Shown: one piece after another, positions 27,920 through 43,911 of the stretch
Numbering within the stretch: position 1 is the stretch's first letter
Layout: the number at the start of each line of letters is the position of its first letter
NCBI RefSeq assembly: GCF_017115095.1
Contig: NZ_JABXKI010000073.1
Span: 1 to 46,212, forward strand
From: Nostoc sp. NMS4
GTDB lineage: Bacteria; Cyanobacteriota; Cyanobacteriia; Cyanobacteriales; Nostocaceae
Reading direction: 5' to 3'
Length of the DNA stretch: 46,212 nt
Translations under genes and position numbers: made by a program
Notes under the pieces: generated by a model
What the model was told of the DNA's origin: nothing
What the model saw: only the letters and a program-made list of their open reading frames with translations
Databases searched by the model: none

Positions 27920-29194
27920 TTATTCGCAGACAGAATAATATCTATCTGGTGTTTTTTGTCTCTCGGAAATAACTTCAATATCAAATTGATTAAATTCTTT
28001 AATTATCTCATCAGTTAAATAATTATCAGTAATATCAAGAGTATCTAGTTGACGAATAGATGGACAATTAAGTAAACATTCTGCACCCTTGCATCCTAAG
28101 TTTCCAACTGAAAGGTCTAGTTCTAGTAAATTTTCAAGAATTGGAGAATCTACTATAGCACAAGCCAATTCATCTGAAAAGTTACAATCACGTAATCCTA
28201 AATATTTAAGATTTGGAAATATATAAGGACAATCTGTGATGAATTTAATAACAAAGTCATACGCCCAATTACTTGATCCCAACCATAATTCAAGGTATTC
28301 CAAGGCTGGTAATTCTAGTTGGCAAATTTCATCAAGCACATCATAATGGGAAAATGCATATGACTCGATAATAATTGCTTTTAAATTTTCATGTCTAACT
28401 GGAATGAATTGCATCCCGGTGAAGTATTTGTAATACCTGGAAGAACTATTGCAGCGAATCTTTAATACTTCTAATTGTGGATAAGCTAACAAAATATAAC
28501 TTAAATTACTGTATACAAGTGGCAAGTAACCCAATTCATAATCATTAACATCTCCTATAAATAAAGCTTTAATATTACTAAGTTGTTCATGAGCATTAAG
28601 TAATGCATCCATAACAGGACGGAAAGTGTAATCTTCTAAAGAACTTGTGTACCACAATCCGAATACCAAAGCTTCAATCTGATTAGCGAGAGGACTTTGC
28701 AACAATATTTGCAGCTTGTCTACACTACTCATAACGAGTTTCCCATAGCGTTCTGCTGGGATAATCCTTAAAGCGTAAGCTATATCAACTGTGTCACTAA
28801 TCTTAGTGGTAGGATCAAATTCAATCACTTTCCGGTTAGCGAATGTAGTTGAATAACCACAAGGAATACTATAGACTTTTTCAAAGCTCGTCCAGAATTT
28901 GTAATTTTTTAAAGCTAATTCTACTTGAGGATCTTCTATATTTTTTAAAATTTTTAATGCTGCTTTTTGAACTTTCCTAGATTTATTTTTCAAAGCTTCA
29001 ATTAGCAAATATAACCCTGCATCGCCATAGTTTAATGCTTCACTTACCGCTGCAATTCCAACTTCAATATTGGAACTTGATAAACGTCTTTTAACACCTT
29101 CAATCCCACCTAAAACAACACCTTGTACTGGTGGCGGTGCTTCTCCTCCGAGTACTGCATCAAATTCTCCAGGCTGATTTTGATTGTTTGTCAT
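27920..29194 (-). CDS. LRR protein with DAVLGG N-terminal module (STM4015-like), copy 1
   Basis: A 424-residue soluble protein. Residues 1-40 form the shared module (NQPGEFDAVLGGEAPPPVQG, then VVLGGIEGVKRRL). Residues 41-110 are a HEAT-like helical pair (ALNYGDAGLYLLIEALKNKS). Residues 220-410 hold leucine-rich repeats such as PALEYLELWLGS, FPNLKYLGLRDC and LDTLDITDNYL. It ends with the tail DRYYSVCE. Such repeats usually bind proteins. The gene sits between the two radical SAM genes with short gaps (35 and 81 bp), which supports co-transcription with the cassette. The function of the N-terminal module is unknown. Confidence 0.85.
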   Translation of the reverse strand: MTNNQNQPGEFDAVLGGEAPPPVQGVVLGGIEGVKRRLSSSNIEVGIAAVSEALNYGDAGLYLLIEALKNKSRKVQKAALKILKNIEDPQVELALKNYKFWTSFEKVYSIPCGYSTTFANRKVIEFDPTTKISDTVDIAYALRIIPAERYGKLVMSSVDKLQILLQSPLANQIEALVFGLWYTSSLEDYTFRPVMDALLNAHEQLSNIKALFIGDVNDYELGYLPLVYSNLSYILLAYPQLEVLKIRCNSSSRYYKYFTGMQFIPVRHENLKAIIIESYAFSHYDVLDEICQLELPALEYLELWLGSSNWAYDFVIKFITDCPYIFPNLKYLGLRDCNFSDELACAIVDSPILENLLELDLSVGNLGCKGAECLLNCPSIRQLDTLDITDNYLTDEIIKEFNQFDIEVISERQKTPDRYYSVCE

Positions 29195-29275
29195 ATTTTT
29201 TCCAACGGTAGATGTAATATAAATATCCGTAGAAACGTGATTAATCGCTTCTCTACAAATCTTTTTGAAACCCCA

Positions 29276-30619
29276 CTATTTCAATTCATAATCCTGCATT
29301 AATTCCTGAACTTTCTCAGAAAATAACCACGCGCCAATAGTGTCAGAACGCTCAATGCCAAATTCAGTTAACTGTAAAATATCCTCATCTTTTATCGCCA
29401 AATTCAAAGCAAGCAGTTCTGAAAATTCTGGAAAATCAGCGTATACTTCACTACCAAATTGCTGACGATAACTAGCACAATTCAATCCTTCATCGGAAAG
29501 CAAAGATAACAAAATATAGCGCCGACGTTGTTCTTCAGCATTTAGTTGAAAACCATAGTGCGCGTACTCAAATGACTCATCTGCTGTTTGAATATATGCT
29601 TGTAAAATCTCGCTGATTCCCTTTGCTCCCACTGCATATTCGTTGGAGTAGTGCAAAGTATTAGTATAAGAACGTGCGCCACAACCTAAACCAATCATCC
29701 CGTCGGCTTGACAGCAGTAGACGGGAGATGAGGGAGAAAGATTGCTACCTTGTCCCTCTTCCAAGCGTCGAAACATCCGCATGGAAACTTGCGTATATCC
29801 TTCTGACAATAATAGCGATCGCCCTTCCCGATAACAAGCTAAACGAATATCGTCCCATTCTCGATCTGTGCGTCCCAAACCTGTGAGCGATCGCACGTAC
29901 AATGGATATAGATAAATTTCTTCTGGTTGAAAACGCAAGGTAGCTTGTATTGATTGCAACCAAGTATTTACTGTTTGTCCGGGTAAACCGTAAATCAAAT
30001 CAATATTCAGAGTGGGAAATCCCATCTCTTTTATCCTTGTCAGGGTTGCTTCTACTTGGGTAGTAGATTGACGGCGCTGGGTGGCTAAAACTTCCGAATC
30101 GATGAAGCTTTGGACACCAATGCTAACACGATCGACGGCGTGCGATCGCAACAACTTTAACTTATCCTCAGTGGCGGTTTCTGGCGAAACTTCCACAGAA
30201 ATGGGAATTTCCAGTAACTTTGCACCCATCGTACTTTCGGCAATATTGAGAATAGTTTCGAGGTGCTGAATCGGTAATTGGGTGGGAGTTCCGCCACCAA
30301 TAGCGAACCTAGCAAATGACGCATCACCCAACACCGCTTTCATTCGTTGCGCCTGTCGCTGTAACGTGCGGACATATTGACTCATAAAATCTTCATTGTG
30401 GCTGACTGTAGTAAACAGGTTGCAGAACCCACAACGCATTTCACAAAACGGTATATGTATGTAGAGAAATAGCGCTTGCCTATCTTGCTGCGCCCAAAGT
30501 TCTGGGAGATGCACAGGTGGAGTGAGGGGACGGTAAGCTGTTTTGTGGGGATAAGAATAGACGTATGCTTGATAAGGAGACTCGGCAATTTTTGATTTAA
30601 GATTTTGGATTGTCAGCAT
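29276..30619 (-). CDS. HemN-like radical SAM protein, STM4012-like
   Basis: A 447-residue protein of the coproporphyrinogen dehydrogenase-like (HemN) radical SAM group. The cluster motif CEMRCGFC sits in YIHIPFCEMRCGFCNLF near residue 58, followed by GGGTPTQLP, SVEVSPET, VSIGVQSF and LIYGLPGQT, all typical of HemN relatives. The HemN-like C-terminal domain is present. Membership in the cassette argues for STM4012 rather than haem synthesis. The first 12 residues (LTIQNLKSKIAES) are encoded by a genome repeat (AATCCAAAATCTTAAATC type), so the true start may be further in. Confidence 0.85.
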   Translation of the reverse strand: MLTIQNLKSKIAESPYQAYVYSYPHKTAYRPLTPPVHLPELWAQQDRQALFLYIHIPFCEMRCGFCNLFTTVSHNEDFMSQYVRTLQRQAQRMKAVLGDASFARFAIGGGTPTQLPIQHLETILNIAESTMGAKLLEIPISVEVSPETATEDKLKLLRSHAVDRVSIGVQSFIDSEVLATQRRQSTTQVEATLTRIKEMGFPTLNIDLIYGLPGQTVNTWLQSIQATLRFQPEEIYLYPLYVRSLTGLGRTDREWDDIRLACYREGRSLLLSEGYTQVSMRMFRRLEEGQGSNLSPSSPVYCCQADGMIGLGCGARSYTNTLHYSNEYAVGAKGISEILQAYIQTADESFEYAHYGFQLNAEEQRRRYILLSLLSDEGLNCASYRQQFGSEVYADFPEFSELLALNLAIKDEDILQLTEFGIERSDTIGAWLFSEKVQELMQDYELK

Positions 30620-30624
30620 AAGAT

Positions 30625-30668
30625 TTAAAAGAATTTAGAACTCTGCGCCTCTGCGCCTTTGCGTGAGT
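30625..30668. repeat. CTCTGCGCCTCTGCGCCTTTGCG-type dispersed repeat
   Basis: Short direct CTCTGCGCCT/CTGCGCCTTT units in the gap between the STM4012-like and STM4013-like genes. Related sequence is seen at 31495-31515 and 39360-39380. Confidence 0.65.
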
Positions 30669-30670
30669 TT

Positions 30671-31471
30671 TCATAAAATAAACTCTGCATAGGGAACAGT
30701 CCAAACCACAGGATGGCTAAGTCGATGTCCAGTGTAACCATCTTCACCATAAGTTGTCCCGTGGTCGGAACAGAGAATGCAAAAAGTAGAATGCCTTTGT
30801 CGTATAATATTCCAGAGTTTGGCCAATTGGCGATCGACATATTCCAAAGCTGCGGCGTGAGATTCAATGGTATCGATTTTATCTTTTGCATCGGGAAGAT
30901 AGAAATAATTTGGTTGATGCAAAGCCGAAATATTTATAAATAAAAATATGCGTTGATTATTTGGCGTTTTTTCTAAAATTTGTCGCGCCAGATTTACCTG
31001 ATTTTCTGTAGATTCGGGGTTAGTAACACCTAATTCTGGACTCCAATAACTTTCGGCAAACATTGAGGGAATTACATTACCTAAAGGGTTGCATTTGTTG
31101 AAAAAACCAACTCCACCAATGCAAACTGTATAATATCCCTTTGCAGCTAATCCATTAACAATATTTGAGCTATCTAACACACAAGTTGTATCAGTTGTAG
31201 TGGTACTTCCTTCAAATCCCAAAGCAAAAAGACGGGGGTGAATTCCAGGCGTTACAGGTGTGGGTAAAAAGCCTGCAAAAAACGCATGATGAGAAGCATA
31301 AGTGAAATTTCCGGGTGAATGGCGTTCTTCCCAGCCTGTTTTAGGAAGTACTTTTGCTAAGTTTGGAGTGCGTTTTTGTGCGAGTAAATCTTTGGCTACG
31401 TCGTAACGTAGTGTGTCTAATGTGATAAATAAGATATCGTGATTTCCAACTATTTGATTCATATTGAACAT
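30671..31471 (-). CDS. Alkaline-phosphatase/sulfatase-fold hydrolase, STM4013-like
   Basis: Metal-dependent hydrolase of the alkaline phosphatase superfamily, about 266 residues from the preferred start MFNMNQIV (ATG 31471). The frame is open up to 31654, but that extension overlaps the upstream ATP-grasp gene and looks repeat-derived. Visible metal-site segments are LFITLDTLRYD near residue 20, RHSPGNFTYASHHAFFAG near residue 55 (a Thr or Ser is the likely nucleophile), and ILCSDHGTTYGEDGYTGHRLSH near residue 240. No signal peptide is seen, so it acts in the cytoplasm. Fourth step of the cassette; substrate unknown. Confidence 0.8.
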   Translation of the reverse strand: MFNMNQIVGNHDILFITLDTLRYDVAKDLLAQKRTPNLAKVLPKTGWEERHSPGNFTYASHHAFFAGFLPTPVTPGIHPRLFALGFEGSTTTTDTTCVLDSSNIVNGLAAKGYYTVCIGGVGFFNKCNPLGNVIPSMFAESYWSPELGVTNPESTENQVNLARQILEKTPNNQRIFLFINISALHQPNYFYLPDAKDKIDTIESHAAALEYVDRQLAKLWNIIRQRHSTFCILCSDHGTTYGEDGYTGHRLSHPVVWTVPYAEFIL

Positions 31472-31535
31472 GGCGAAGAAAAATATTTTTTTATGCTCAC
31501 GCAGAGGCGCAGAGTCGCAGAGAGTAAAGAGAAAT

Positions 31536-32711
31536 TTATAAAAATCTCTGTGTTTTCTGTGTCTCTGTGGTTCGTTCCAAAATAGCCTTAACTTCACTCG
31601 TGTAAGTATCCATACCATTCCACAAAATACCTGGTAGTAAATCACCGAAAGCATTAATCTCTAAAATCGCATGAGTTTTCCAATCTGGTAAAATTAATAA
31701 ATCAACTCCGCAATATAAACTATTAGGAAATAGCGCTGCTGCTTGTTCACAAGTTCGCTTCATTATCTCCCAATTTTCTACACCAAGTTTTGCTAGAAAT
31801 TCCTCAGTATTTCCCCGTTCATTGCCCAAATGCAAATTTGTCATGGGACTTTTACCAAGGCGAACAACGATATGCTGTGCTTCACCATTGATAACCACCA
31901 CACGCACATCAAATCCGCATTCTTGTAAATGTGCTTTGGGTAGCCATTCTTCAACTTGTACGCCTTCTGCTGTCAAGATATTGATAATATCGGCGATTTC
32001 TTCGTGATGGGTATAGTGCCTAATTTTCCGGGAGTTGTAAAGCAGAGTTTGCCCATTTTCTCGCACTCGTTCGACGGTGGTAATGGCTGATTCAAAACGC
32101 GAATTTGCGCGGTAAGCAACGACTCCAGAAGCTGCGGAACCGTGGGAAAGTTTGACGAATACTCGTTCTATTCCCTGCATTTGCATTTGTTCGCGTAAAT
32201 GTTCGTAGTTGTGGATTTTACCTAATGAACGCGGAACGGGGATATTATGATGGCTGAATCTTTCGTGACAAGCTGGTTTGTCAAACATCACAGCGATATC
32301 TTGGGGATGGTTCATCAACTCGCCATTTGTGAGGAGGGGAGAAAGTTGGGTTTCCCATTTTTGCAATAGATACCGCCAGCCTAAATACCACTGTCGCGGA
32401 TAGAGGATGAGTCCTTTGTCAAATTCTAATTTTGTTGCTGCTTCTGCACTGATATATTGATGACTGGAAGTAGAAAAAATCTCCTTACTCCCTTCTGCAA
32501 TGATGGCTTTATCAACATCAAAGTTTTTTTCTGGAGAGTCAAAGCGGATAATAGTGTTGGGTGTATTGAATTGTTCGAAAGTTTGTTTTCCTGCTATTAA
32601 GTCGGCGTAATCTACTACCGTGGCTGGTGGTAAGTTGAAATGGGCGATCGCTTCTTGGAGGAAACCGACACGGCGGTTTTCGGGGTTGGCGATGAGGATA
32701 AAATTTAGCAT
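31536..32711 (-). CDS. ATP-grasp protein, STM4014-like
   Basis: A 391-residue protein with an ATP-grasp fold. Recognisable segments are FDKPACHERFSHHNIPVP near residue 145, VFVKLSHGSAASGVVAY near residue 190, EEWLPKAHLQECGFDVRVVV near residue 265, and the metal-binding end GVDLLILPDW...AILEINAFGDLLPG near residues 340-370. ATP-grasp enzymes ligate carboxylates to amines or thiols. It lies upstream of the hydrolase gene in the cassette. The last 13 codons (ERTTETQKTQRFL) come from an ACACAGAGACACAGAAAACA repeat, suggesting the original stop was lost to repeat insertion. Confidence 0.82.
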   Translation of the reverse strand: MLNFILIANPENRRVGFLQEAIAHFNLPPATVVDYADLIAGKQTFEQFNTPNTIIRFDSPEKNFDVDKAIIAEGSKEIFSTSSHQYISAEAATKLEFDKGLILYPRQWYLGWRYLLQKWETQLSPLLTNGELMNHPQDIAVMFDKPACHERFSHHNIPVPRSLGKIHNYEHLREQMQMQGIERVFVKLSHGSAASGVVAYRANSRFESAITTVERVRENGQTLLYNSRKIRHYTHHEEIADIINILTAEGVQVEEWLPKAHLQECGFDVRVVVINGEAQHIVVRLGKSPMTNLHLGNERGNTEEFLAKLGVENWEIMKRTCEQAAALFPNSLYCGVDLLILPDWKTHAILEINAFGDLLPGILWNGMDTYTSEVKAILERTTETQKTQRFL

Positions 32712-32726
32712 TATCTAATATATTCT

Positions 32727-34000
32727 TTATTCGTGTAATGCCCAATAACGTGAACCTGCTTCTCCTCGACGATAGTTTTCTTCCTGCGAATCTGCAATTA
32801 ATCGACAATCAAGTTGAGACAATTGTTGAATTATCTGTGGTGATATACAGTTTTTAGAAATATTGAGTGTATGAAGCCGATTTACACTTGGACAATTTAG
32901 CAAATTTTCTGCACCGTTATCAGTTAAAATTCCCATAGATATATCAAGCACTGCTAGACGTTCAATAATTGGAGATTGTACTAAAGCTTCTACAAGCACG
33001 TCAGTATTTTCAAAGCTTGGTAGAGCAAGATAAGATAAATTAGGAAGTAATTCACCTGAAAATAGTGTCTCAAAAAAATCAAAATGTGAGTATCTACAGC
33101 GTCCTCCCCATAATTCCAGATATTCGAGTGATGGCAATTCCAGAGTACATACTTGTGCTAATGCGCGAGCATAGTTATCTGCTGTTTCTAAGATTAAAGT
33201 TTTTAAAGATTTAAAGTTTTTAAAGATGGATGGTAGATTTTTTTTGAAAAGAGATTATTATGAGGATTTCCGTGTATTTTCAGCACTTCTAATTTGGGAA
33301 AATTCTCTAAAATAGAAATCATATCACTTAAATAAATACGTGATTTTTTATATTCATGTTGACGGCGATCGCCAATAAATAAAGCTTTTAAATTTGTTAA
33401 TTTTTGACTAGCTTTACAAAGCATATTTATGAGTGTCAGACACTCTTGGTGATATATTTCTAAGTAACTTTTATCAGGCATCCAACAAGCTAAAGCTTCA
33501 ACTTCACTGACTTGGATATCATTGAGGAATACTTGAAGAGCATCTAGATTAAAATCTTCAACTACACGAAATTCTCCACGAGGATTTGGCTCCTCACGAT
33601 AGAGGTTAACATTGTAAGCTGTACTAATTGCAGAAGTGATTCCAATATTTGGATAAAAAGTTTCAAATTGCCAATCTTCTAGCATAGTAAAACATTGCTG
33701 AGGATTATGTCTCAATAAAGTTTCTTTACCCTTTTCTCCACCTTTATCCCGCAGAAGACAAGCAGCAAACATCTGCACTTTATCTGAAGGGTCTTTCAAG
33801 GCTTGAATTACTAATTGAAAACCTTCTTCTTGATAGCGTAAAGCATCAATCAATGCAGATGCTCTTTCTCTAGCTTCAGGGCTTTTCAAGCGATTTTTTA
33901 CGCCTTCAATTCCTCCTAAAACCACACCACTAACAGGAGGTGGTGCTTCACCACCAAGTACAGCATCAAATTCTCTGGGTTGATTTGGATTGTTGTTCAT
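32727..34000 (-). pseudogene. LRR protein with DAVLGG module, copy 2, frameshifted
   Basis: From ATG 34000 the frame has the shared module (NQPREFDAVLGGEAPPPVSG, VVLGGIEGVKNRL), the HEAT-like segment and the first LRR-like strands. It stops at about 33203 after HPSLKTLNL. The rest of the protein continues in another frame, as SLEYLELWGGRC from 33137 to the tail SRYWALHE at 32727. The cause is a perfect 17-bp tandem duplication (33194-33227) that shifts the frame by two. Removing one unit restores HPSLKTLILETADNYARALA and an intact gene of about 420 codons. It is thus a very recent knock-out or a switchable allele. Confidence 0.88.
33194..33227 (+). repeat. Perfect 17-bp tandem duplication causing a frameshift
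   Basis: Two identical units TTAAAGTTTTTAAAGAT at 33194-33210 and 33211-33227 lie inside the LRR copy 2 gene. One unit is enough for an intact frame. Confidence 0.92.
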
Positions 34001-34029
34001 TTTAGATAATCTTGTATTATTTTATTATT

Positions 34030-35277
34030 TTATTCCCAGACTGAGTAATAGCGATCGCTAAACTGAGAATCTGCAATTACTCGACATTTCAACTCAGAAA
34101 ATTGCTCAATTATATTTTTAGGTAAACGATTTCCAGAAATATTGAGAGTATGCAAGTAATTAATTATTGGAGACTTTAATAAAGCACTTCCATTACCTAT
34201 ATTTCCATCTGTTAACTCAAGTACCTTCAGATTTCCCATAATTGGAGAATTAACAATAGCTTGAGCAACCTCGCTCATATTTCCACATTGTCTTACTGCT
34301 AGGTATACCAATTTAGGGAACGACTCACCCGAAAGCATAGGTGCTAAACTATCGATATTGATGTTGCTTAAATCACTTCTACTTAGCCATAGCTCAAAGT
34401 ATTCTAGAGATGGTAAATTTAAATTGGAAATTTTCGCAATATTACTATCAGATATCCCATCAGCATCAACAATCAAAGTTTTTAAATTCTCATGTTTTAA
34501 AGGGTTTATAGGAATAATAGAATTATTTTGAGAGTTGCGAACCTGTAGTATTTTTCGTTCAGGCTTGAGAATATCTTCTTCAAGCATTCGACCCCGGATA
34601 TGAAGTAATTCTAAGTAAGGATAGGATTTTAGTAGAGGATGAATACTACATACCTTGATATTTGATTCTCTATATTTTATATTGATGAGGTCGCAGCAAT
34701 CTCCAATTAATAATGCTTTCAAACTCGTAAGCAATTCACGAGCGTTAACAAGTGTGTCAGCAAAATCTTTAAAGGCGATTTTGCAATTCGGATCTTTGTA
34801 GTAAGCTTGAAACTTGATTGCTTCTATGTCTTTAGCTTTCGGATCTTGAAGGAAGCGCGATAATTTATTTTTACTATTTACATAGTTTTCATTATATAAA
34901 CAATATGCCTGACCTATTGGGTCTTTAATTCTGTCATAATAGTAATCTTCCCAATCTTGAAATGTCGTTAAAACTAACCAAGGGTCATAATCTAGTAATG
35001 CCTGCTTACCTTTAGTACCAGCTTTGCGTAGTAAACAAATAGCACGATCGTGTATTTCTTCTGAAGGATCGTATAACGCTTCAATAATTAAATCTATTCC
35101 TGCGTTACCATATTTCAGCGCATCTTCAAGTGCTGAAGTTTTCACTTCATCATCTTGGCTATTTAGACGATTTTTTACTCCTTCAAGTCCTCCCAAAACT
35201 ACAGCGTAGTTTTGATTTTGCTGTTCTCCACCAAGTACTGCGTCAAATTCTCCGGGTTGATTATAATTATTATTCAT
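34030..35277 (-). CDS. LRR protein with DAVLGG N-terminal module, copy 3
   Basis: A 415-residue paralogue of the other LRR proteins. The N-terminal module is varied: NQPGEFDAVLGGEQQNQNYA, then VVLGGLEGVKNRL, so the PPP between the two LGG units is lost. The HEAT-like part (ALKYGNAGIDLIIEALYDPS) and LRR strands (LPSLEYFELWLSRS, LKVLELTDGNIG, LHTLNISGNRL) are present. The C-terminal tail is SDRYYSVWE. It is 29 bp from copy 2 and 119 bp from copy 4 on the same strand, so the copies probably arose by tandem duplication and are co-transcribed with the enzyme genes downstream. Confidence 0.85.
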   Translation of the reverse strand: MNNNYNQPGEFDAVLGGEQQNQNYAVVLGGLEGVKNRLNSQDDEVKTSALEDALKYGNAGIDLIIEALYDPSEEIHDRAICLLRKAGTKGKQALLDYDPWLVLTTFQDWEDYYYDRIKDPIGQAYCLYNENYVNSKNKLSRFLQDPKAKDIEAIKFQAYYKDPNCKIAFKDFADTLVNARELLTSLKALLIGDCCDLINIKYRESNIKVCSIHPLLKSYPYLELLHIRGRMLEEDILKPERKILQVRNSQNNSIIPINPLKHENLKTLIVDADGISDSNIAKISNLNLPSLEYFELWLSRSDLSNINIDSLAPMLSGESFPKLVYLAVRQCGNMSEVAQAIVNSPIMGNLKVLELTDGNIGNGSALLKSPIINYLHTLNISGNRLPKNIIEQFSELKCRVIADSQFSDRYYSVWE

Positions 35278-35301
35278 AGTTAAAATTGAACTAATTAAGA
35301 G

Positions 35302-35385: not shown

Positions 35386-35396
35386 TACTGTAAATT

Positions 35397-36659
35397 TCAC
35401 TCAGAAACAGAACAATAGCGACCGTCAATGTAACTATCTTCATCTTCTGCTTTCTGATTATTTGCCAAAACACGAACATCCAAATCAGAGAATTTCTCAA
35501 TCATTTCCTGAGATAAGAAGTTTTCTGAGATATTGAGAATATCAAGATTATTTATCGCAGAAAAATTCAGCAATTCTTCCGCACCAGCATCAATCAGCGT
35601 TCCCATTGAAAGGTCAAGTACGCTGATATAATCAAGAATTGGAGAACCTATAATAACGCTGACTATTTCATCGGTAAATTGGCTATTGCGTAATCCTAAA
35701 TAATTTAACTTGGGAAATTTTTCTGCAAAAATAATTGGATTTAAATCTTCAACCCAACAATCTCCGCCGTAATCTTCACTACCAAACCATAATTCTAAAT
35801 GTTCCAAGGCTGGCAGATTCATATTACAAATTTGTGCAACAGTATCCCGACTTAATCCCCCAGTTTCAACAATCAAGGCTTTGAGGTTATTATGTCGTAT
35901 TGGCGGACTAAATTGTAAACGATCGCCTCCACGAACTTGCAAAAATTCGAGTTTGTGATAAGCTTGTAAAATGGGACTTATATCGCTTTGTTGAATCCAA
36001 GATATTTCCGAATCCTCAGAAGTAATATCACCAATAAAAACAGCTTTGAGATTAGTTAAACGTTGTTTAGCATCAACTAAAGCTTGGACAATACTACTTG
36101 AATCAGTCTGTGATGTTTCTGCCCACAAACCAAACACTAAAGCTTCTAATTTGTCGGCATTGGGTTCTTGCAGAAGTCTACTAAGTTTACTGGGTAAATT
36201 CTCATGATTTTCATACTCAAACCTGAGAGCATAAGCATTGTTAACAGGTTCAACAATACCTACATTTACATCGAACTCTATAACTTGCCGATTAGCAAAT
36301 TGAGGAACATGATAACCTTGATACCCTTGATACTGGTTAAATCTCTCTTCCAAGTTCCAAGATTTATATGCTTGCAAAGCTTGTTTGACTTGCGGTTCTA
36401 CTTGTTGCTTCAATAGTCGATAAGCAAAACGCTGCACCAATCTCGATTTATCTTGCAATGCTTGAATTAATACATCCAACCCCGCATCACCATATTTCAA
36501 GGCTTCGCTAAGTGCAGCAACCCGCACTTGAGTCACAGGATTTGATAAACAACGTTTAACCCCCTCAATTCCTCCTAAAACAACTCCATCCACAGGAGGC
36601 GGAGATTGTCCTCCCAAGACTGCATCATAATCTCTGGGTTGATTTTGGTTCTCTGTCAT
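35397..36659 (-). CDS. LRR protein with DAVLGG N-terminal module, copy 4
   Basis: A 420-residue protein, first gene of the minus-strand arm. It has the module NQPRDYDAVLGGQSPPPVDG, VVLGGIEGVKRCL (residues 6-38), a HEAT-like segment (ALKYGDAGLDVLIQALQDKS, residues 50-70), and LRRs from about residue 215 (LPALEHLELWFGSE, FPKLNYLGLRNSQF, INNLDILNISENFL). A Glu/Asp-rich stretch near residue 405 precedes the tail GRYCSVSE. Its first 110 residues resemble those of the WD40 protein at 39441 more than chance would allow. It is transcribed divergently from the DUF2997 gene, sharing a 147-bp promoter region. Confidence 0.85.
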   Translation of the reverse strand: MTENQNQPRDYDAVLGGQSPPPVDGVVLGGIEGVKRCLSNPVTQVRVAALSEALKYGDAGLDVLIQALQDKSRLVQRFAYRLLKQQVEPQVKQALQAYKSWNLEERFNQYQGYQGYHVPQFANRQVIEFDVNVGIVEPVNNAYALRFEYENHENLPSKLSRLLQEPNADKLEALVFGLWAETSQTDSSSIVQALVDAKQRLTNLKAVFIGDITSEDSEISWIQQSDISPILQAYHKLEFLQVRGGDRLQFSPPIRHNNLKALIVETGGLSRDTVAQICNMNLPALEHLELWFGSEDYGGDCWVEDLNPIIFAEKFPKLNYLGLRNSQFTDEIVSVIIGSPILDYISVLDLSMGTLIDAGAEELLNFSAINNLDILNISENFLSQEMIEKFSDLDVRVLANNQKAEDEDSYIDGRYCSVSE

Positions 36660-36806
36660 GGTGCTTTACCTTTTGATTCTTTATTAGAATTCCCAAAAAT
36701 GCTACGCATACATCAATGCAAATAATTGCCGTTGACGGAAATTTAGTAGAACATAGAGATAATTGTGGCATTTCTAACACCCTGAAAAAATCAAGAAATT
36801 ATACTT
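36660..36806. promoter_or_regulatory. Divergent promoter region of the two arms of the system
   Basis: The 147-bp A+T-rich spacer between LRR copy 4 (minus) and DUF2997 (plus) must carry promoters for both arms. No operator or clear -10/-35 pair could be assigned. Confidence 0.45.
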
Positions 36807-37019: not shown

Positions 37020-37063
37020 GAGGGACTTAGACGATCGCAGATAACCTGTTACATATCTAAGGA

Positions 37064-37690: not shown

Positions 37691-37699
37691 GGGGGCAAT

Positions 37700-37797
37700 C
37701 AATTCAAAATTCAAAATTCAAAATTCAAAATTAAAGAACTTCTGCCTCCTGTCTCCTCTTTCCCAATGCCCAATGACAAATGACAAATGACAAATGA
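37700..37797 (+). repeat. Two short tandem heptamer runs
   Basis: ATTCAAA repeated four times (37702-37729) and TGACAAA repeated three times (37774-37794). The second run directly supplies the ATG of the Hsp70 gene. Confidence 0.9.
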
Positions 37798-39353
37798 CTA
37801 CAGTAATAATTGATTTTGGTACTAGCAATACTGTTGTTTGTACTACTGATTTGATTACGCAAAAACCACGGACATTGAGATTTGAATCGATGTCGCGCCG
37901 CTTTGAGGTTGGGGCAGAACAAGTTAGCGTTGTACCCAGTTTAGTATTTGTGGAAGGGCGCGATCGCATTTCTTTTGGTGAATCTGTACGCGCCAAACGC
38001 TTAGGGTTTGCCCAGCCGGAACGCTGTTTTAGAGCTTTTAAACGCGATTTGGCAGCAGATTTTGTCCCACCTCCCCGACAGTTGGATGGTAATAGTTATA
38101 GCGCTGAGGTGGTTTCGGAACTGTTTCTCAAGGAAATTTGGCAACAGGTTGAACAGCAATTACAACCCACTAGCGTTATTTTCACAGTTCCCGTCGGTGC
38201 ATTTGAGCGATATCTTGACTGGTTCCGCAACTTGGGCGACAAGTTAAATATTCCCGCAGTGCAAATTGTCGATGAATCTACCGCAGCCGCCCTTGGTTAT
38301 GCTGTCAAGCATCCTGGGGCTGTAGTTTTGGTGGTTGATTTTGGCGGCGGTACTCTAGATTTAAGTTTAGTACGAACTGTCAGCGCTGAATCTGAACAGC
38401 AAGTAGTGCGTGCCGAAGTTATCGCTAAATCCGATGCTTTTATTGGCGGCGTAGATATTGATACATGGATTGTCGAACATTACCTGCAAAAAATCGGTTC
38501 CTCCCGTGCTGATGTTGGAGAAATCGGCTTTATGAATTTGCTGGAAGTAGCAGAAAGGGTAAAAATTCAAATTTCGGCAACAGATGAGGCGAAAGAAAGT
38601 TGGTTTGATGACGAAAATTTTATGTCCCATGAATTGCAATTACATCGGGACGAATTAGGCGAAATTTTAGAAAATCAACAATTATTAGAACAGCTAAGAC
38701 AAACCCTAGATGAAGTATTAGCGATCGCACTTGCTAAAGGTATCAGCAAATCTACAATTGAACAGGTTTTATTAGTGGGTGGTACTTGTCAAATTCCCGC
38801 CGTGCAACAACTAGTAATTTCCTATTTTGGACGACAGAAGGTAAAGTTAGACAAACCCTTTGAAGCCGTCGCACATGGCGCATTAGCTTTAAGTGAAATG
38901 GCAGCAATTGATGATTACCTGCGCCACAGTTATGCTATTCGTCTTTGGGAACCCCACAGCAAAAGTTATTCTTATTTAACTTTAATTGAAAAAGGGGCAA
39001 AGTATCCAGGAGCGCGTTCTGAAGCTTTAACTCTGCAAGTCGCCACAGAGGGACAGCGAGAAATTCGCCTTGATATTGGGGAAGTAGCAGAAGTTTCCCA
39101 AGCGGAAGTTTATTACGATACTCAAGGAAGGATGACGAGTAGCCAATTAGTCAAACAAGATAGTTATCGCTCTTTGGAAACTCATCATCAACAGGTATGT
39201 GTCGCTCATATCGAACCGCCTGGACAAACGGGAATAGACCGAATACAAGCACAATTTGAAGTGAATGAACAACGGGTGTTAGTAGTGACAGTAAAGGATT
39301 TATTGACGGGGGAGATGTTAGTTGATAAGGGTGCGATCGCTAAACTCAAATAA
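37794..39353 (+). CDS. Hsp70 family protein
   Basis: A 519-residue member of the Hsp70/actin-like ATPase superfamily. The phosphate 1 motif is IIDFGTSNTVV at the N-terminus, and VDESTAAALGYA near residue 162 and VVDFGGGTLDLSLV near residue 180 are conserved. The adenosine motif is VLLVGGTCQIPAVQQL near residue 325. The part after residue 390 is a short beta-rich substrate-binding-like region, and the usual helical lid of DnaK is missing. Paired with the GrpE-like gene upstream and a WD40 gene downstream, it looks like a specialised chaperone rather than housekeeping DnaK. The start ATG lies in a TGACAAA repeat. Confidence 0.87.
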   Translation: MTTVIIDFGTSNTVVCTTDLITQKPRTLRFESMSRRFEVGAEQVSVVPSLVFVEGRDRISFGESVRAKRLGFAQPERCFRAFKRDLAADFVPPPRQLDGNSYSAEVVSELFLKEIWQQVEQQLQPTSVIFTVPVGAFERYLDWFRNLGDKLNIPAVQIVDESTAAALGYAVKHPGAVVLVVDFGGGTLDLSLVRTVSAESEQQVVRAEVIAKSDAFIGGVDIDTWIVEHYLQKIGSSRADVGEIGFMNLLEVAERVKIQISATDEAKESWFDDENFMSHELQLHRDELGEILENQQLLEQLRQTLDEVLAIALAKGISKSTIEQVLLVGGTCQIPAVQQLVISYFGRQKVKLDKPFEAVAHGALALSEMAAIDDYLRHSYAIRLWEPHSKSYSYLTLIEKGAKYPGARSEALTLQVATEGQREIRLDIGEVAEVSQAEVYYDTQGRMTSSQLVKQDSYRSLETHHQQVCVAHIEPPGQTGIDRIQAQFEVNEQRVLVVTVKDLLTGEMLVDKGAIAKLK

Positions 39354-39440
39354 TCTTATCTTTGCGCCTTTGCGGTTCGTTTAAAAAAGAACTGTAATCA
39401 AAAATGGGAATACTAATAATAGTAAAGTGGTAAAAATGCA

Positions 39441-41048
39441 ATGACAGAGAATCAGAATCAACCTAAAGAATATGATGCTGTACTTGGTGGACAATTACCA
39501 CCACCTATTCATGGCTTAGTTTTAGGCGGAATAGAGGGTGTAAAGAAGCGTTTGGTTAGTATATCTTTTGAACAAAGAATTGCGGCGCTAGAAGATGCAC
39601 TCAATTATGGAGAAGCAGGTTTAGAATTACTAATTCAGACTTTGACAGATGTATCACCAGAAGTACAACAAACCGCTGAAAATTTGCTTTTCCAGCATCG
39701 GACAGAACCAAGAGTAAAACAAGCACTACACGAGTATGATCCTTGGCTACTTTTTGAATGTCTGCAAACAATCATCGGACACACAGATGATGTTGATAGC
39801 GTAATCATCAACCCTGATGGGCAAACTATTTTTAGTTGCAGTAGTGGCAAAACAATTCGACTATGGAGTTTATCACAAAGACAGGAAATCTCTACTTTGC
39901 AGGGACATTCCAGAGGTATCAATTCTATTGCTATTCACCCTAATGGGCAAATTCTCGCAAGCGGTAGTTATGATGAGACGATTAAACTTTGGGATGTCGA
40001 GACAAGACAAGAACTCCGTACACTCACAGCACACTCTGGTGGAGTTCATGCGATCGCCATTAGTCCAGATAGTCGAACTTTAATCAGTGGTGGTGCAGAC
40101 AATACTGTTAAAGTATGGGATTTTCAGACGGGAAATTTACTTCGCACTTTAAATGGTCATTCAGAAGCTGTTTATGCTGTTACCTTTCACCCTGATGGAC
40201 AAACTATTGTCAGTAAAAGTGATGATAAAACTCTAAAGCTGTGGTGTTTTGATACAGGGAAGGAACTTTACACCCTGCCTACTGGATCTTCAGGTGGGCG
40301 TACATCTTTAGCTTTTAGCCCCGATGGGCAGATATTAGTTAGTGCTTGTCGTGAAACACTAAAGCTGTGGGATTGGTCAAACAAACAGGAACTTCACGTT
40401 TTGAGAGGATATTTAGACTATATTCAATATCTTACTTTCAGTTCGGGAGGAATTAATAGCTTTGCTATTAGTCCTTATGGTCAATTGCTTGCTTGTAATA
40501 TTATAAATCAACGGATGATATTAGTGTGTGATTTACAAGTAAAAGAGCAATTAAATACACTGAAAGAACCTCATCATAGCGCTTATAGTCATTGCCTTGC
40601 ACTTATACCAAATAAACAAATTCTTGTCGATGCTAATCTTCATCTTCTTGATCTATGGAATTTAGATACAGGAAGACTAACCCGTACTCTAACAGCACAT
40701 TCTCAGAATTTTAAGTCTATTGCAATTAGTTCAGATGGAGAAACTTTAGTTACTGGTGATAAGAACAGTATAATTAAAGTTTGGGTTTTGCCTACAAGAG
40801 AGGAAAAACTTACCATAAATGCACAATCAGGTAGTATTCTGTGTGTTGCTATCAGTCCAGATGGACAAAATCTAATCAGCGGTTGTGAGGATGGCACCAT
40901 GAAAGTATGGGACTTACAGACAGGGCGGAGAAAAGCCATTTTCAACGGACATACAGATGGGGTTTATTTTGTCGCTATTAGCGCTGATGGGCAAACTCTT
41001 ATTAGCGGTAGTGTAGATGGGACTATTAAAATATGGGGAATGCCATAA
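39441..41048 (+). CDS. WD40 repeat protein with DAVLGG N-terminal module, copy 1
   Basis: A 535-residue protein. Residues 6-38 are the module shared with the LRR proteins (NQPKEYDAVLGGQLPPPIHG, LVLGGIEGVKKRL). Residues 45-108 are HEAT-like (ALEDALNYGEAGLELLIQTL). From residue 112 about ten WD40 repeats follow (GHTDDVDSV...IRLWSL, GHSRGINSI...IKLWDV, up to GHTDGVYFV...IKIWGM); repeats 5-7 are degenerate. Ten blades would exceed a single seven-blade propeller, so two propellers are possible. Downstream of the Hsp70 gene on the same strand (87-bp gap, with a repeat). It is presumably a protein-interaction scaffold. Confidence 0.88.
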   Translation: MTENQNQPKEYDAVLGGQLPPPIHGLVLGGIEGVKKRLVSISFEQRIAALEDALNYGEAGLELLIQTLTDVSPEVQQTAENLLFQHRTEPRVKQALHEYDPWLLFECLQTIIGHTDDVDSVIINPDGQTIFSCSSGKTIRLWSLSQRQEISTLQGHSRGINSIAIHPNGQILASGSYDETIKLWDVETRQELRTLTAHSGGVHAIAISPDSRTLISGGADNTVKVWDFQTGNLLRTLNGHSEAVYAVTFHPDGQTIVSKSDDKTLKLWCFDTGKELYTLPTGSSGGRTSLAFSPDGQILVSACRETLKLWDWSNKQELHVLRGYLDYIQYLTFSSGGINSFAISPYGQLLACNIINQRMILVCDLQVKEQLNTLKEPHHSAYSHCLALIPNKQILVDANLHLLDLWNLDTGRLTRTLTAHSQNFKSIAISSDGETLVTGDKNSIIKVWVLPTREEKLTINAQSGSILCVAISPDGQNLISGCEDGTMKVWDLQTGRRKAIFNGHTDGVYFVAISADGQTLISGSVDGTIKIWGMP

Positions 41049-41211
41049 GGGTAGAAAAAAGTGCGATCGCACTTCTGTATTTGAAAAAATTATCCCATAG
41101 AAAGCGTATTTATGAAATTAGGTGATTATAGCGATCGCACTCAACAATATTATCATATAACTAAGATACAAATTACCACAAGAACTGCAATTTTACTCAA
41201 AAAACCATCAA

Positions 41212-42132
41212 ATGATTGACCACGAATGCGCTTCGCGCACGCTACGCGAACGCCTATTTAAAGAACTTCTTTCCAACTTCTTCCCAGAGTTTATCGAGCT
41301 ATTTTTCCCAGATATAAGTGCTTATTGGGAGAGAGATTCAATAGAGTTTTTGCCACAAGAGGTATTCACAGATGTGACTGAGGGAGAACGGAAAATACTC
41401 GATATAGTTCTGCAAGTCTCAGTTAGAAACCAAGATACTTTATTTATCATTCACACTGAACATCAATCTTATTCTCAAACTAACTTCAATCAGCGAATGT
41501 TTACATATTTCGCTCGACTGCACGAAAAATATGCCCTCCCAGTGTACCCGATAGTCATTTATTCTCATGACTCTCCCCAAACACCAGAACCGAACTCTTA
41601 TCGCATCGATTTTCCCCACAAGCGGGTGCTGGAATTTAATTATGAAGTTGTCCAGCTAAATCAATTAAAATGGCAGGATTTCGTCAATCAGAGAAATCCT
41701 GTAGCCAGCGCTTTGATGGCGAAAATGCAGATTGATGTTCAAGAACGCCCAACAGTAAAGCTAATGTCGCTACAATTGCTAGCGAATTTGGGACTCAATC
41801 CCGCACAAATCCAGTTAATTTCTGGCTTTATTGATACATATCTCGATTTGAATGCTCAAGAAGAAATCATGTTTCAAGAACAACTTGCTAGTATTGAACC
41901 AAAGCAGGAGGAAAGAGTTATGCAAATCGTCACCAGTTGGATGAGACAAGGTATACAGCAAGGAGAATTGACGCTGATTTTACGCCAACTAAACCGCCGT
42001 ATAGGTGAAGTGAATCCGCAGTTACAAGAACGTATTCAAACTTTGTCAACAGATGAGTTAGAAAATTTGGGAGAAGCTTTACTAGATTTTACAACTACTG
42101 CTGATTTAGAAGCTTGGTTTGAGAGTAGATAA
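41212..42132 (+). CDS. Rpn-family nuclease-like protein with DUF4351
   Basis: A 306-residue protein of the recombination-promoting nuclease / PD-(D/E)xK transposase-like group common in cyanobacteria. The core has FPEFIELFFPD, an acidic KILDIVLQVSV, the E-x-Q site in IIHTEHQS near residue 85, and FNQRMFTYFARLHEKY. Residues 237-306 are a DUF4351 domain (MQIVTSWMRQGIQQGEL ... LEAWFESR). Near the N-terminus, an in-frame 24-bp insertion derived from a genome repeat changes the expected MIDHERLFKELL to MIDHECASRTLRERLFKELL. It is situated between two WD40 genes of the system; relatedness to that system is unproven. Confidence 0.82.
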   Translation: MIDHECASRTLRERLFKELLSNFFPEFIELFFPDISAYWERDSIEFLPQEVFTDVTEGERKILDIVLQVSVRNQDTLFIIHTEHQSYSQTNFNQRMFTYFARLHEKYALPVYPIVIYSHDSPQTPEPNSYRIDFPHKRVLEFNYEVVQLNQLKWQDFVNQRNPVASALMAKMQIDVQERPTVKLMSLQLLANLGLNPAQIQLISGFIDTYLDLNAQEEIMFQEQLASIEPKQEERVMQIVTSWMRQGIQQGELTLILRQLNRRIGEVNPQLQERIQTLSTDELENLGEALLDFTTTADLEAWFESR

Positions 42133-42368
42133 GTACGAAGGAAAGAGTTATGCAAATCGTCACCAGTTGGATGAGACAAGGTATACAGCAAGGCGAATTG
42201 AAGATGATTTTACGCTTGCTTAACCGCCGTATAGATGAAGTGAATCCGCAATTACAAGAACGTATTCAAACTTTGTCAACAAATGAGTTAGAAACTTTGG
42301 GAGAGGCTTTACTAGATTTTACAACTACTGCTGATTTAGAAGCTTGGTTTGAGGCTAGATAGTTAGGG
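41909..42368 (+). repeat. 230-bp tandem duplication of the DUF4351 end
   Basis: Two adjacent copies (about 41909-42138 and 42139-42368) with a constant offset of 230 bp between their ATGs (41920 and 42150) and stops (42130 and 42360). They differ at a few scattered positions. Confidence 0.88.
42150..42362 (+). CDS. Stand-alone DUF4351 domain (duplicate of the upstream gene's 3' end)
   Basis: A 70-codon ORF, nearly identical to residues 237-306 of the Rpn-like protein: MQIVTSWMRQGIQQGELKMI to LEAWFEAR, with about 61 of 70 residues the same. It has its own ATG with AGGAAAGAG 4 bp upstream, so it could be translated as a free DUF4351 peptide; otherwise it is a pseudogene copy. It lacks the nuclease part. 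Confidence 0.65.
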   Translation: MQIVTSWMRQGIQQGELKMILRLLNRRIDEVNPQLQERIQTLSTNELETLGEALLDFTTTADLEAWFEAR

Positions 42369-42476
42369 TTTTTCCCTCTTTTCTAGATGAAGGGGTTAAG
42401 AGCGATCGCTCAAAATTTATCAAGCCAATAGTAGCGATGGCAAATTAAATAAGCTAGTTTCAAAAGTAAAAGCACG

Positions 42477-42560
42477 ATGTCAAAAAAGTCCAATCGACCA
42501 AGACTTTATGATGCTGTCCTTGTAGGTAAAATTCCAAATAAGTGCGATCGCATTTCCTGA
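42477..42560 (+). pseudogene. 27-codon relic or mini-gene of the DAVLGG module
   Basis: ATG 42477 to TGA 42558-42560 reads MSKKSNRPRLYDAVLVGKIP and then NKCDRIS. This aligns with the start of the WD40 and LRR proteins (NQPREYDAVLGGKNPPP) but stops soon after, where a HIP1-containing sequence cuts in. It lies 37 bp before the next full member. It is either the remnant of a further family gene or an independent short peptide. Confidence 0.65.
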
Positions 42561-42597
42561 ATTGGGAATACTGGTATTAGAGTCGAGGAAGAGAATT

Positions 42598-43911
42598 ATG
42601 CCAGAAAATCCCAATCAACCAAGAGAATATGATGCTGTACTTGGCGGAAAAAATCCTCCGCCAGTCGATGGTGTAGTTTTAGGCGGATTGGAAGGCGCAA
42701 AACGAAGTTTCGCTAACAGTGATGAAAATTACCGCCTTTTAGCGCTTTCGCAACTCATTAACTATAGACAGGAAGGCTGGGATTTAGTAATTCAGGCTTT
42801 AAAAGACCCATCACAACGGCTACAGCTAGCAGCATATAAACTATTGCGGGATATCTCAGAATTAAAAGTAAAACAGGCAATTTTAGAATTTAATCCCTAT
42901 CGGTTTTTTGAGTGTGTTTATACAATTGAGCTTAATCAGTATTATGATGCAGCGATCGCCATTCATCCCGATGGCAAAACCCTAGTCTGTTGCGATGCTA
43001 GCGACACTTCTGATGAAGAATCTCAAAGAAATAGCAGTATTATTGGTGGGACTTCTCTAGATTTTAAAAAGTGGGATTTGAAGACAGGAAAAAGTCTTCG
43101 CACCATCAATAAAACCTTTGCTACGAGAATAAAGGAATACCCAGAACATTTAACTTTTAGTTCTGATGCTCAAACGTTGGCGATAGTTGGTTTTCAGCAT
43201 GACAAGACCATTATAACTGAAATTTGGAATCTCAATACTGAGCAATTAAGTCATCTTATTAGCGGACAACCGTTGGGGGACTCTAGAATTAGAAGGCGTA
43301 ATACTATTACCGCTACTACTCTTAGTTCTGATGGCAAAATATTAGCTAGCGGTAATGAAGCTGGTCATATTATCGTCTGGGATTTAGAAAATAAACAAAA
43401 TATTGACATTACCAAAGGACATTTACAACGTATAACTTCTGTCGCTATTAATGCAGATACAAACATCCTCGCAAGCGCTAGTTATGATAAACCTATAAAA
43501 ATCTGGGATTTTAGAACTGGAAGTGAAATTTACACATTGGTAGGAGAGGATACTTTTGACTATAATTCTAATGGTGCATTGCTGGCAATTAGTCCCAATG
43601 GAAAGACTTTAATAACTAGCGACCATCATATGCCAGAACTCATCAGAATATGGGACTTGAGAACTGGTAAAGAAATTCATAAATTATTTAGTAATACCGG
43701 TCCATTGAGATGTTTTACTTTGAGTGCAGATGGAAAAATCTTTGTTAGCGTTAGTTGTGGCGGTTATGTTAATATCTGGAATTTGCAAACACAAGAATTA
43801 CTTGCTAAACTTCCTCATGATGCAACAAGAACAAGTGTTGCTATTAGCCCAGATGGACAAACTATTGTCAGTTACATTGGGAAATTCATTCAAGTATGGC
43901 GAGTTCCATAG
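42598..43911 (+). CDS. WD40 repeat protein with DAVLGG N-terminal module, copy 2
   Basis: 437 residues from ATG 42598, preferred over TTG 42562 because the family N-terminus MxENPNQP begins there. The module is NQPREYDAVLGGKNPPPVDG, VVLGGLEGAKRSF. The HEAT-like part is LINYRQEGWDLVIQALKDPS. About seven WD40 repeats follow from residue 105, with typical strands IIVWDLEN, IKIWDFRTG, IRIWDLRTG, VNIWNLQT and IQVWRVP at the end. It is the last intact family member in the window. The last 75 codons overlap a shadow frame that is not coding. Confidence 0.87.
   Translation: MPENPNQPREYDAVLGGKNPPPVDGVVLGGLEGAKRSFANSDENYRLLALSQLINYRQEGWDLVIQALKDPSQRLQLAAYKLLRDISELKVKQAILEFNPYRFFECVYTIELNQYYDAAIAIHPDGKTLVCCDASDTSDEESQRNSSIIGGTSLDFKKWDLKTGKSLRTINKTFATRIKEYPEHLTFSSDAQTLAIVGFQHDKTIITEIWNLNTEQLSHLISGQPLGDSRIRRRNTITATTLSSDGKILASGNEAGHIIVWDLENKQNIDITKGHLQRITSVAINADTNILASASYDKPIKIWDFRTGSEIYTLVGEDTFDYNSNGALLAISPNGKTLITSDHHMPELIRIWDLRTGKEIHKLFSNTGPLRCFTLSADGKIFVSVSCGGYVNIWNLQTQELLAKLPHDATRTSVAISPDGQTIVSYIGKFIQVWRVP

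Follow-up and report, generated by a model that had tools for sequence, protein, structure and literature searches.

In the window, by which we mean the whole 46,212-nucleotide stretch of Nostoc sp. NMS4 DNA that was analysed, six proteins share an N-terminal module of about 100 residues, consisting of a leader (DAVLGGxPPPVxGVVLGGIEGVK) and a five-helix HEAT domain, which precedes either LRRs or WD40 blades. The same stretch holds a radical SAM/ATP-grasp cassette, which corresponds to STM4011-4014 and whose neighbouring LRR proteins are STM4015-like, as well as genes for Hsp70-like, GrpE-like, AAA+, DUF2997 and DUF1257 proteins (Table 1).

Table 1. Genes and features of the window.
Feature	Position	Strand	Remarks
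STM4011 radical SAM/SPASM protein	27009..27884	-	accompanies LRR copies, not the leader
LRR protein with module, 424 aa	27920..29194	-	tail RYYSVCE
STM4012 HemN-like radical SAM protein	29276..30619	-	
STM4013 sulfatase-fold hydrolase	30671..31654	-	family match from residue 65
STM4014 ATP-grasp protein	31536..32711	-	
Remainder of the 33203-34000 LRR gene, other frame	32727..33137	-	tail RYWALHE
LRR gene, first part (leader, HEAT, first LRRs)	33203..34000	-	frame breaks at about 33195-33227
LRR protein with module, 415 aa	34030..35277	-	without PPP; tail RYYSVWE
LRR (STM4015-like) protein, 420 aa	35397..36659	-	leader 1-35, HEAT about 36-98, STM4015 match from residue 145; tail RYCSVSE
DUF2997 protein, 70 aa	36807..37019	+	PF11211, E 2.4e-19
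GrpE-like protein, 208 aa	37064..37690	+	
Hsp70-A, Hsp70-like protein, 519 aa	37794..39353	+	ATPase domain and short C-terminal part; paralogue tracking the leader
WD40 protein with module, 535 aa	39441..41048	+	
Probable decayed leader (MSKKSNRPRLYDAVLVG...)	42477..42581	+	weak match, E 1.09, internal stop
WD40 protein with module, 437 aa	42598..43911	+	
DUF1257 (Ycf35-type) protein	44115..44543	-	PF06868, E 6.9e-38
AAA-A, AAA+ ATPase, 545 aa	44558..46195	-	paralogue tracking the leader

The first-pass annotation had described a start of the form NQPx[ED][YF]DAVLGG, a second motif VLGG[IL]EGxK and an internal VLGG...VLGG duplication, all of which are present in the six window proteins; the PPP said to lie usually between the motifs occurs in five of them and is replaced by QQNQNY in the copy at 34030. 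The HEAT-like helical segment that it had noted proved HEAT/ARM-like by Pfam (below cut-off), by profile matching and in an AlphaFold model. When four module proteins were scanned against Pfam, HEAT_2 matched those at 27920 (E 0.0026) and 35397 (E 0.0002) and GUN4_N matched the latter (E 0.0021), in each case below the Pfam cut-off; no family matched the 34030 protein, and the best 25 of 45 families were considered for the 42598 protein. Within residues 36-98, a profile built from 111 module copies matches designed alpha-Rep HEAT proteins, and the AlphaFold model places five helices in residues 31-103 and predicts the leader to be disordered, 22 of residues 1-27 having a pLDDT below 50. The HEAT part thus modelled resembles GUN4_N (Pfam E 0.002, below cut-off; Foldseek TM 0.57 to 1z3y, E 0.13), although we know of no VLGG leader on GUN4 itself. 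Among copies detected by leader patterns, the leader is more conserved than the HEAT domain (3.13 versus 2.33 bits). A HEAT-only model found 40 copies in the fetched regions, which had mostly been picked by the full module model, and V[LIM]GG lies upstream in 38 of these; the leader also persists in loci L120 and L128, where the HEAT match covers only about 33-43 positions.

A seventh full copy, of the WD40 kind, sits on contig C66 of the same Nostoc genome. The seven copies score between E 7.5e-42 and 6.6e-47 in this 7.58-Mb genome (alignment A2), values that indicate coherence rather than discovery because the model was built from those same seven; judged by sequence, the sharing of the module among them is not due to chance. 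The separate LRR copy initially placed at 32727 does include a module copy, but 32727 marks the tail end of a frameshifted gene whose module lies at 33203-34000, and 17 bp are duplicated at the frame break relative to the intact orthologue in locus L015. The last WD40 copy of the window starts at the ATG at 42598, 42562 being an upstream TTG.

Beyond Nostoc, we kept 80 places (74 loci) of 178 located by leader patterns, and in the fetched loci the module is joined to LRR, WD40, FGE-sulfatase-like, GUN4, LRV, pentapeptide and HEAT C-termini. The design had been called swappable, which holds for the diversity of the C-termini and, as regards exchange, only over long times: on a module tree of 103 rows, built by a quick method that left 48 of 100 inner branches without resolution, the C-terminal classes cluster and need 16 changes versus 55 for shuffled labels. 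With that proportion of unresolved branches in mind, this clustering speaks against rapid exchange of the module between LRR and WD40 proteins, a reading that we rejected. We also rejected the FGE-class proteins as targets of a diversity-generating retroelement, as template-repeat scans of the loci and of one whole genome gave no template. Long matches to the 3' ends were found only in L065 and L038, both inside FGE genes, and the whole M. vaginatus genome scanned has only two further repeat places, one of 74% (the FGE gene of L073) and one of 70%; in seven genes compared, the C-termini vary more than the N-termini, which is insufficient to show retroelement targeting.

Hsp70-A meets the general Hsp70 model PF00012 (110.2 bits against a cut-off of 20.6) and falls far below the curated DnaK cut-off (106.5 against 648), and its length suggests that the lid is absent. 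The GrpE-like protein lies below the PF01025 cut-off (19.0 against 25.8 bits) and has a profile match to 1dkg_A (E 0.001); AAA-A is presumably of the Ycf46 type. An Hsp70 ATPase fold encoded next to a GrpE-like protein recalls DnaK and GrpE, but here we find a separate, short Hsp70 paralogue, both proteins score under the curated DnaK and GrpE cut-offs, and Hsp70-A is linked to an AAA+ protein and to module proteins. A report on Synechocystis describes a DUF2997-ycf35-fed7 gene cluster (PMC4284462), in which DUF2997 and DUF1257 are encoded together as in the window; the difference is that the two genes here neighbour those for AAA+, GrpE-like, Hsp70-A and module proteins.

We surveyed 386 cyanobacterial genomes, 57 of which have any module match; 33 of these were counted as having the leader, with a match starting at query position 10 or earlier, and the other 24 start at position 15 or later. 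The best 12 (module), 3 (Hsp70), 7 (GrpE-like) and 3 (AAA) first-look candidates were scored per genome, and the paralogue classes were set by gaps in bit score, at least 574.6 versus at most 466.3 for Hsp70-A (the lower group including a fragment in G245, 363.5) and at least 871.7 versus at most 718.5 for AAA-A. On this basis, in lists compiled by hand, Hsp70-A occurs in 27 of the 33 leader genomes and the leader in 27 of the 31 Hsp70-A genomes (Fisher p 1.3e-31); for AAA-A the corresponding counts are 30 of 33 and 30 of 34 (p 5e-37). Both paralogues together are found in 27/33 leader genomes versus 1/353 leaderless ones. Shuffling within families, over the 107 genomes with a family given, never reached 27 in 20000 trials (mean 16.1). 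The p-value for the GrpE-like gene was set aside because its class was partly picked by adjacency to Hsp70-A and because six matches of 153 to 204 bits, including a second place in G187, had been omitted. Within one genus of 13 genomes, the leader, Hsp70-A and AAA-A are jointly present in two and jointly absent in 11, with STM4014 in five.

G172, the sole leaderless genome with both paralogues, encodes a single 849-aa frame composed of Hsp70, ASLGGLAGTKKRL and WD40, that is, an Hsp70–LGGLAGTKKRL–WD40 fusion, and has separately a HEAT-like match (residues 35-99) in which the leader part is missing. A motif modelled on the linker of this fusion occurs in 48 reading frames among the 1.69 million residues scanned (overlapping loci included), and 47 of these frames also bear V[LIM]GG. 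The six leader genomes lacking one or both paralogues have short leader frames (G284, 114 codons; G305, 123; G199, 67), a degenerate leader frame (G167), a broken Hsp70 gene (G121) or a 77-aa Hsp70 stump (G072). Hsp70-A stands without leader or AAA-A in G087 and G127, AAA-A without leader or Hsp70-A in G129 and G195, and G245 combines AAA-A and the Hsp70 fragment with absence of the leader.

The genes concerned are frequently neighbours. Hsp70-A-like, GrpE-like and DUF2997 genes accompany AAA and DUF1257 in 11 of 18 module regions fetched, alongside module genes with several kinds of C-terminus, and the other seven (L123-L126, L130-L132) have no Hsp70-like or GrpE-like gene. Adjacency is not strict, as the GrpE-like gene does not adjoin Hsp70-A in G193, G282, G346 and G229. 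Within the stretches fetched around the leader-selected loci, an Hsp70-like or GrpE-like gene was found in only 14 of 74, and in none of the 28 with FGE copies alone. As judged by eye from match positions, 17 of the 27 genomes positive for both have Hsp70-A and a module gene no more than 20 kb apart, and much of the co-occurrence could for this reason reflect shared gain and loss of one cluster. In eight of the other ten, the two genes are on different, sometimes short contigs; only in G346 and G177 do both sit at distant positions of the same large contig.

From comparative genomics, we consider it more likely than not that the leader serves as a docking tag by which this family of repeat proteins is handled by a dedicated Hsp70/AAA+ machine. 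The disordered leader with its two VLGG motifs would be the tag recognised by a chaperone machine that runs on ATP and that some cyanobacteria possess; it would comprise Hsp70-A, a GrpE-like exchange factor, and AAA-A together with the DUF1257 and DUF2997 proteins encoded alongside it. The tag would be shared by proteins whose target-binding C-termini differ widely, the machine would dock on it with the HEAT domain as a spacer or second surface, and the tagged proteins may thereby be folded, loaded, remodelled or switched. In the relatives of Nostoc, the LRR members are at the same time STM4015 proteins, and the separate STM4011-4014 cassette probably acts on their LRRs or C-terminal tail. Because tag and Hsp70/AAA+ tend to be present or absent together, dedicated handling of every tagged protein is suggested. 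It had been proposed at the outset that a common partner reads the leader while the repeats choose targets, and the co-occurrence with Hsp70-A and AAA-A fits this, although the partner does not appear to be the radical SAM/ATP-grasp cassette. Any assignment of the leader to one particular ATPase is conjectural, and the first VLGG, flanked by acidic residues, would be a poor site for a classical DnaK, which counts against the proposal.

In its wider form, towards which we lean by a narrow balance, the proposal is that a disordered VLGG leader of about 35 residues singles out a varying collection of unrelated repeat proteins as dedicated clients of a single Hsp70/GrpE-like/AAA+ machine with DUF1257 and DUF2997, that genomes acquire and lose core and tag jointly, and that, in the absence of the machine, the tag degenerates or is cut away, while what remains of the protein may persist. 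A literature search that covered few subscription papers found no description of such a leader/chaperone system, and the strings DAVLGG, VLGGIEG, VLGGLEG and AVLGGQ turned up only villin and cathepsin-peptide contexts. If the proposal is true, Hsp70 and AAA+ would not act here as general folding aids; they would form the core of a modular system that has an address tag of its own, and what DUF1257, DUF2997 and the AAA+ paralogue do would become testable. It would also set the STM4011-4014 chemistry apart from the tag and point the search for its substrate to the LRR body and the RYxxxxE tail.

A conflict (immunity) system of the effector-associated-domain (EAD) type, in which the module would be an adaptor recruiting diverse effectors to an NTPase/chaperone core, seems to us somewhat unlikely, and it is compatible with the docking-tag proposal, which leaves the purpose open. 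The layout is alike, as two accounts of EAD systems describe a small N-terminal module present several times per genome, C-termini of many kinds and an NTP-dependent core (Kaur et al. 2020, PMC7159879; Kaur et al. 2021, PMC8195603), and several module copies with diverse C-terminal domains are indeed observed here. The module C-termini also overlap with the FGS, GUN4, beta-propeller, pentapeptide, TPR and HEAT domains named for the effector position in PMC7159879. Sub-system PADLOC matches point the same way (AAA to IetA, E 1e-28; WD40 protein to HEAT-ARM_XIII, E 4.5e-33; Hsp70 to PDC-M61B, E 2.7e-7; GrpE-like to LmuB, E 9e-5), but the matches, from a scan of ten window proteins, are single-protein only and make no complete system, and that to IetA spans only residues 195-513. 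The constant part is here a disordered VLGG leader with HEAT, and among the Pfam matches listed (the best 25 families for the WD40 module proteins) there is no EAD model, only HEAT and GUN4_N covering the module. The core differs as well, consisting of Hsp70-A, GrpE-like, AAA-A, DUF1257 and DUF2997 proteins; in the window, its ATPases Hsp70-A and AAA-A lack the module, the one fusion being that of G172. On module proteins we recognised neither a toxin-like nor a nuclease domain, five frames with unknown C-terminus and 13 short ones being unclassed.

It is unlikely that we are dealing with a plain HEAT/GUN4_N-like domain that has been duplicated and lacks a special partner, and whose co-occurrence with Hsp70-A and AAA-A only reflects a mobile gene cluster. 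The HEAT part is generic, the C-terminal classes cluster on the module tree and the 20-kb proximity in 17/27 genomes would be expected of such a cluster; against this, G346 and G177 retain leader and Hsp70-A at a great distance from each other, leader genes are short or degenerate where ATPases are missing, and an Hsp70-leader-like-WD40 fusion exists. Moreover, it is the disordered leader that outdoes the fold in conservation and that persists in L120 and L128 beside a partial HEAT match.

Very unlikely, and largely refuted by the gene distributions, is that the leader serves as a RiPP-like recognition sequence for the STM4011-4014 cassette, with the repeats carrying the modified site. All five families of the STM4011-STM4015 set (NF038073, NF006067, NF038075, NF038074, NF038076) are found in the window, where the cassette, a trait of STM4015 surroundings, is interleaved with leader-bearing LRR genes; the 35397-36659 protein scores 304.8 bits with NF038076, above the curated cut-off of 275, and those at 27920-29194 (172.5) and 33203-34000 (broken; 52.6) fall below it. 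A cassette gene is held by 15 of 24 LRR loci but, within the stretch fetched, by none of the 50 module loci without an LRR copy. Leader and STM4014 do coincide above chance (3/33 leader genomes versus 2/353 others, p 0.005), yet STM4014 is below cut-off or absent in 30 of the 33. Conversely, STM4015 occurs leaderless with the cassette in three genomes of one cyanobacterial genus (G024, G042, G389), and six non-cyanobacterial loci in five other phyla, which retain the cassette, encode seven STM4015 proteins without the leader/HEAT module that several Nostoc copies carry; the NF038076 match begins after the module, with none inside it. The link between leader and cassette implied in the first-pass annotation was thus not borne out, the two separating in both directions, and the LRR proteins do not behave as RiPP precursors with a leader for adjacent maturases, as cassette and STM4015 occur without it. 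On these sequence comparisons it is the LRR body with its RYxxxxE tail that the cassette accompanies, a tail which the Nostoc proteins retain. Least probable of all is that VLGG signals double-glycine processing or export, as two GG motifs near the N-terminus might suggest; no peptidase or exporter was noticed in the regions mapped, there are two such sites and not one, and the leader is followed by a HEAT domain predicted to fold and by repeats of cytosolic appearance.

Translation of the window bore out the six proteins with a common N-terminal module that the first-pass annotation had described: each of them opens with NQPx[ED][YF]DAVLGG and continues with VLGG[IL]EGxK, and five carry PPP between these two leader motifs. 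The LRR copy claimed at 32727 does have a module but is not a single frame; one gene occupies frames 33203-34000 and 32727-33137, and at the break (33137-33227) there is a 17-bp duplication relative to an intact orthologue in locus L015. Another contig of the genome (C66) carries a seventh module gene, whose product has WD40 repeats. Positions 42477-42581, whose match reaches only E 1.09, are probably a decayed leader; the related locus L014 has a HEAT-class module gene whose leader they resemble. The stretch separating the two WD40 genes carries, at 41212-42362, a gene for a DUF4351 protein and a second, incomplete copy of it.

The module consists of a leader and a HEAT part, and within residues 36-98 a profile of 111 copies (A6) matched designed HEAT-like alpha-Rep proteins. 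In an AlphaFold model of 104 residues, five helices run between residues 31 and 103; Foldseek matched this model to structures of alpha-Rep and Gun4, always with E above 0.001. Because pLDDT falls below 50 at residues 1-7, 12-21 and 23-27 while conservation is 3.13 bits per column in residues 4-35 versus 2.33 in residues 36-98, an excess that may partly stem from detection by leader patterns, the leader is predicted to be disordered yet conserved. V[LIM]GG lay upstream in 38 of 40 copies found by a HEAT-only model, most of the regions scanned having been picked by a model of the whole module. The HEAT match of L120 and L128 spans only about 33-43 positions before other repeats follow (LRV by Pfam in L120), and the leader is still present.

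The module is borne by 166 distinct reading frames, which come from the window, the C66 locus and 74 cyanobacterial loci (80 places retained out of 178); further genomes also place LRV and pentapeptide C-termini on it.

C-terminal classes among the 166 module frames; names were Pfam-checked on one representative each for FGE, GUN4, HEAT, SMI1, WD40 and LRV, the remaining names come from inspection of the sequence, and five frames in three small classes carry no class name
Class	Module frames
LRR	58
FGE-sulfatase-like	35
WD40	32
HEAT	9
GUN4	8
Small classes together	11
Too short for classing	13

On the module tree the FGE (22 rows) and HEAT (4 rows) classes each form one clade, and C-terminal classes are clustered (16 changes versus 55 with shuffled labels), with 48 of 100 inner branches unresolved. 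FGE-class proteins of L037, L043, L048, L050, L054, L055 and L072 have near-invariant first 40 residues and variable C-termini; no template repeat was found for these genes.

Among or beside the module genes of the window lie genes for DUF2997, GrpE-like, Hsp70-like, DUF1257 and AAA+ ATPase proteins. The full set recurs in 11 of 18 module regions from further genomes (L116-L122, L127-L129, L133), which span several families and carry other C-termini on the module, and an Hsp70-like or GrpE-like gene is absent from seven (L123-L126, L130-L132). Beside DUF1257 and a module gene, L127 also has a 115-codon frame with a single DAVLGG (6960-7304, minus strand). Across 386 cyanobacterial genomes, Hsp70 and AAA each split into a widespread paralogue and a high-scoring one, Hsp70-A (31 genomes; 37794..39353 in the window) and AAA-A (34 genomes; 44558..46195). 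Leader and Hsp70-A occur together in 27 genomes, leader only in 6, Hsp70-A only in 4 and neither in 349; the figures for AAA-A are 30, 3, 4 and 349, and for both ATPases 27, 6, 1 and 352. None of 20000 within-family shuffles of leader labels reached 27 (107 genomes with a family label). The link to the widespread Hsp70 paralogue is much weaker (21/33 leader genomes versus 65/353 others, p 9e-8).

Of the six leader genomes lacking the ATPase pair, three have short leader frames (G284, G305 and G199; 114, 123 and 67 codons), one retains no VLGG (G167), and in two Hsp70 is broken (G121) or a 77-residue stump (G072). Under the query-start rule only G172 has both ATPases without a leader, and there a single 849-residue open frame (L137:7397-9943, plus strand) encodes Hsp70, then ASLGGLAGTKKRL, then WD40. 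The joining stretch is the leader-like LGGLAGTKKRL; a motif modelled on it found 48 frames in 1.69 million residues, 47 of them with V[LIM]GG. Counter-cases are Hsp70-A alone (G087, G127), AAA-A alone (G129, G195), AAA-A with an Hsp70 fragment (G245) and G111, seen on a 3-kb contig.

Could this pattern simply reflect co-inheritance of one cluster? Hsp70-A has a module gene no more than 20 kb away in 17 of the 27 both-positive genomes (positions read by eye), whereas the two are 1.7 Mb (G346) and 0.4 Mb (G177) apart on one contig, and on different contigs in eight; co-inheritance thus explains part, perhaps not all, of it. We lean towards a dedicated Hsp70/AAA+ machine for which the leader serves as docking tag, with support from the shared module, the predicted disorder, the co-occurrence, the neighbourhood in many genomes and the fusion. 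Such a machine would dock on the leader; here we infer the binding itself, the choice of ATPase and the purpose. Hsp70-A is favoured as binder by the G172 fusion, and AAA-A by its slightly closer co-occurrence with the leader. In its layout the system works on the principle of EAD conflict systems (PMC7159879, PMC8195603), but the core differs; as, in addition, none of the Pfam families listed for the proteins scanned is an EAD model covering the module, we do not class the system as EAD. The parts of the literature searched yielded no description of a leader/Hsp70-A/AAA-A system.

The window enzymes STM4011, STM4012, STM4013 and STM4014 were rejected as partner of the leader, as STM4015 without leader stands beside this cassette and module loci without LRR lack it. 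A cassette gene occurs in 15 of 24 loci with LRR copies versus 0 of 50 without. STM4014 exceeded the cut-off in five of the 386 genomes, three of them with the module (3/33 leader genomes versus 2/353 others, p 0.005). In one genus of 13 genomes, which are related and so not independent events, leader, Hsp70-A and AAA-A occur together in G340 and G392 and are all missing from the other 11; STM4014 is found in G340, G392, G024, G042 and, through an additional search, G389. STM4015 of the last three starts M[AT]DN[QD] and proceeds to the W-x-x-QERL that elsewhere follows HEAT, as if the module had been lost, or never inserted. In the window LRR proteins scanned, the STM4015 match begins only after the module, which is absent from seven STM4015 proteins of five phyla (two from Deinococcus, one each from Paenibacillus, Streptomyces, Embleya, Methylobacterium and Bacteroides). 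Of 52 full-length LRR copies, 41 have the tail [RY][YF]xxxxE at their end, versus 0/31 WD40 and 0/30 FGE copies; so do six of those seven proteins, the Methylobacterium one ending YRSIAVSE. With the tail, not the leader, as the common feature of STM4015 proteins, the cassette would more likely read the LRR body and tail, which it may modify. Three of the five annotated non-cyanobacterial records (L108, L110, L112) have DUF6745 genes in the vicinity of their STM4011-4015 cassettes.
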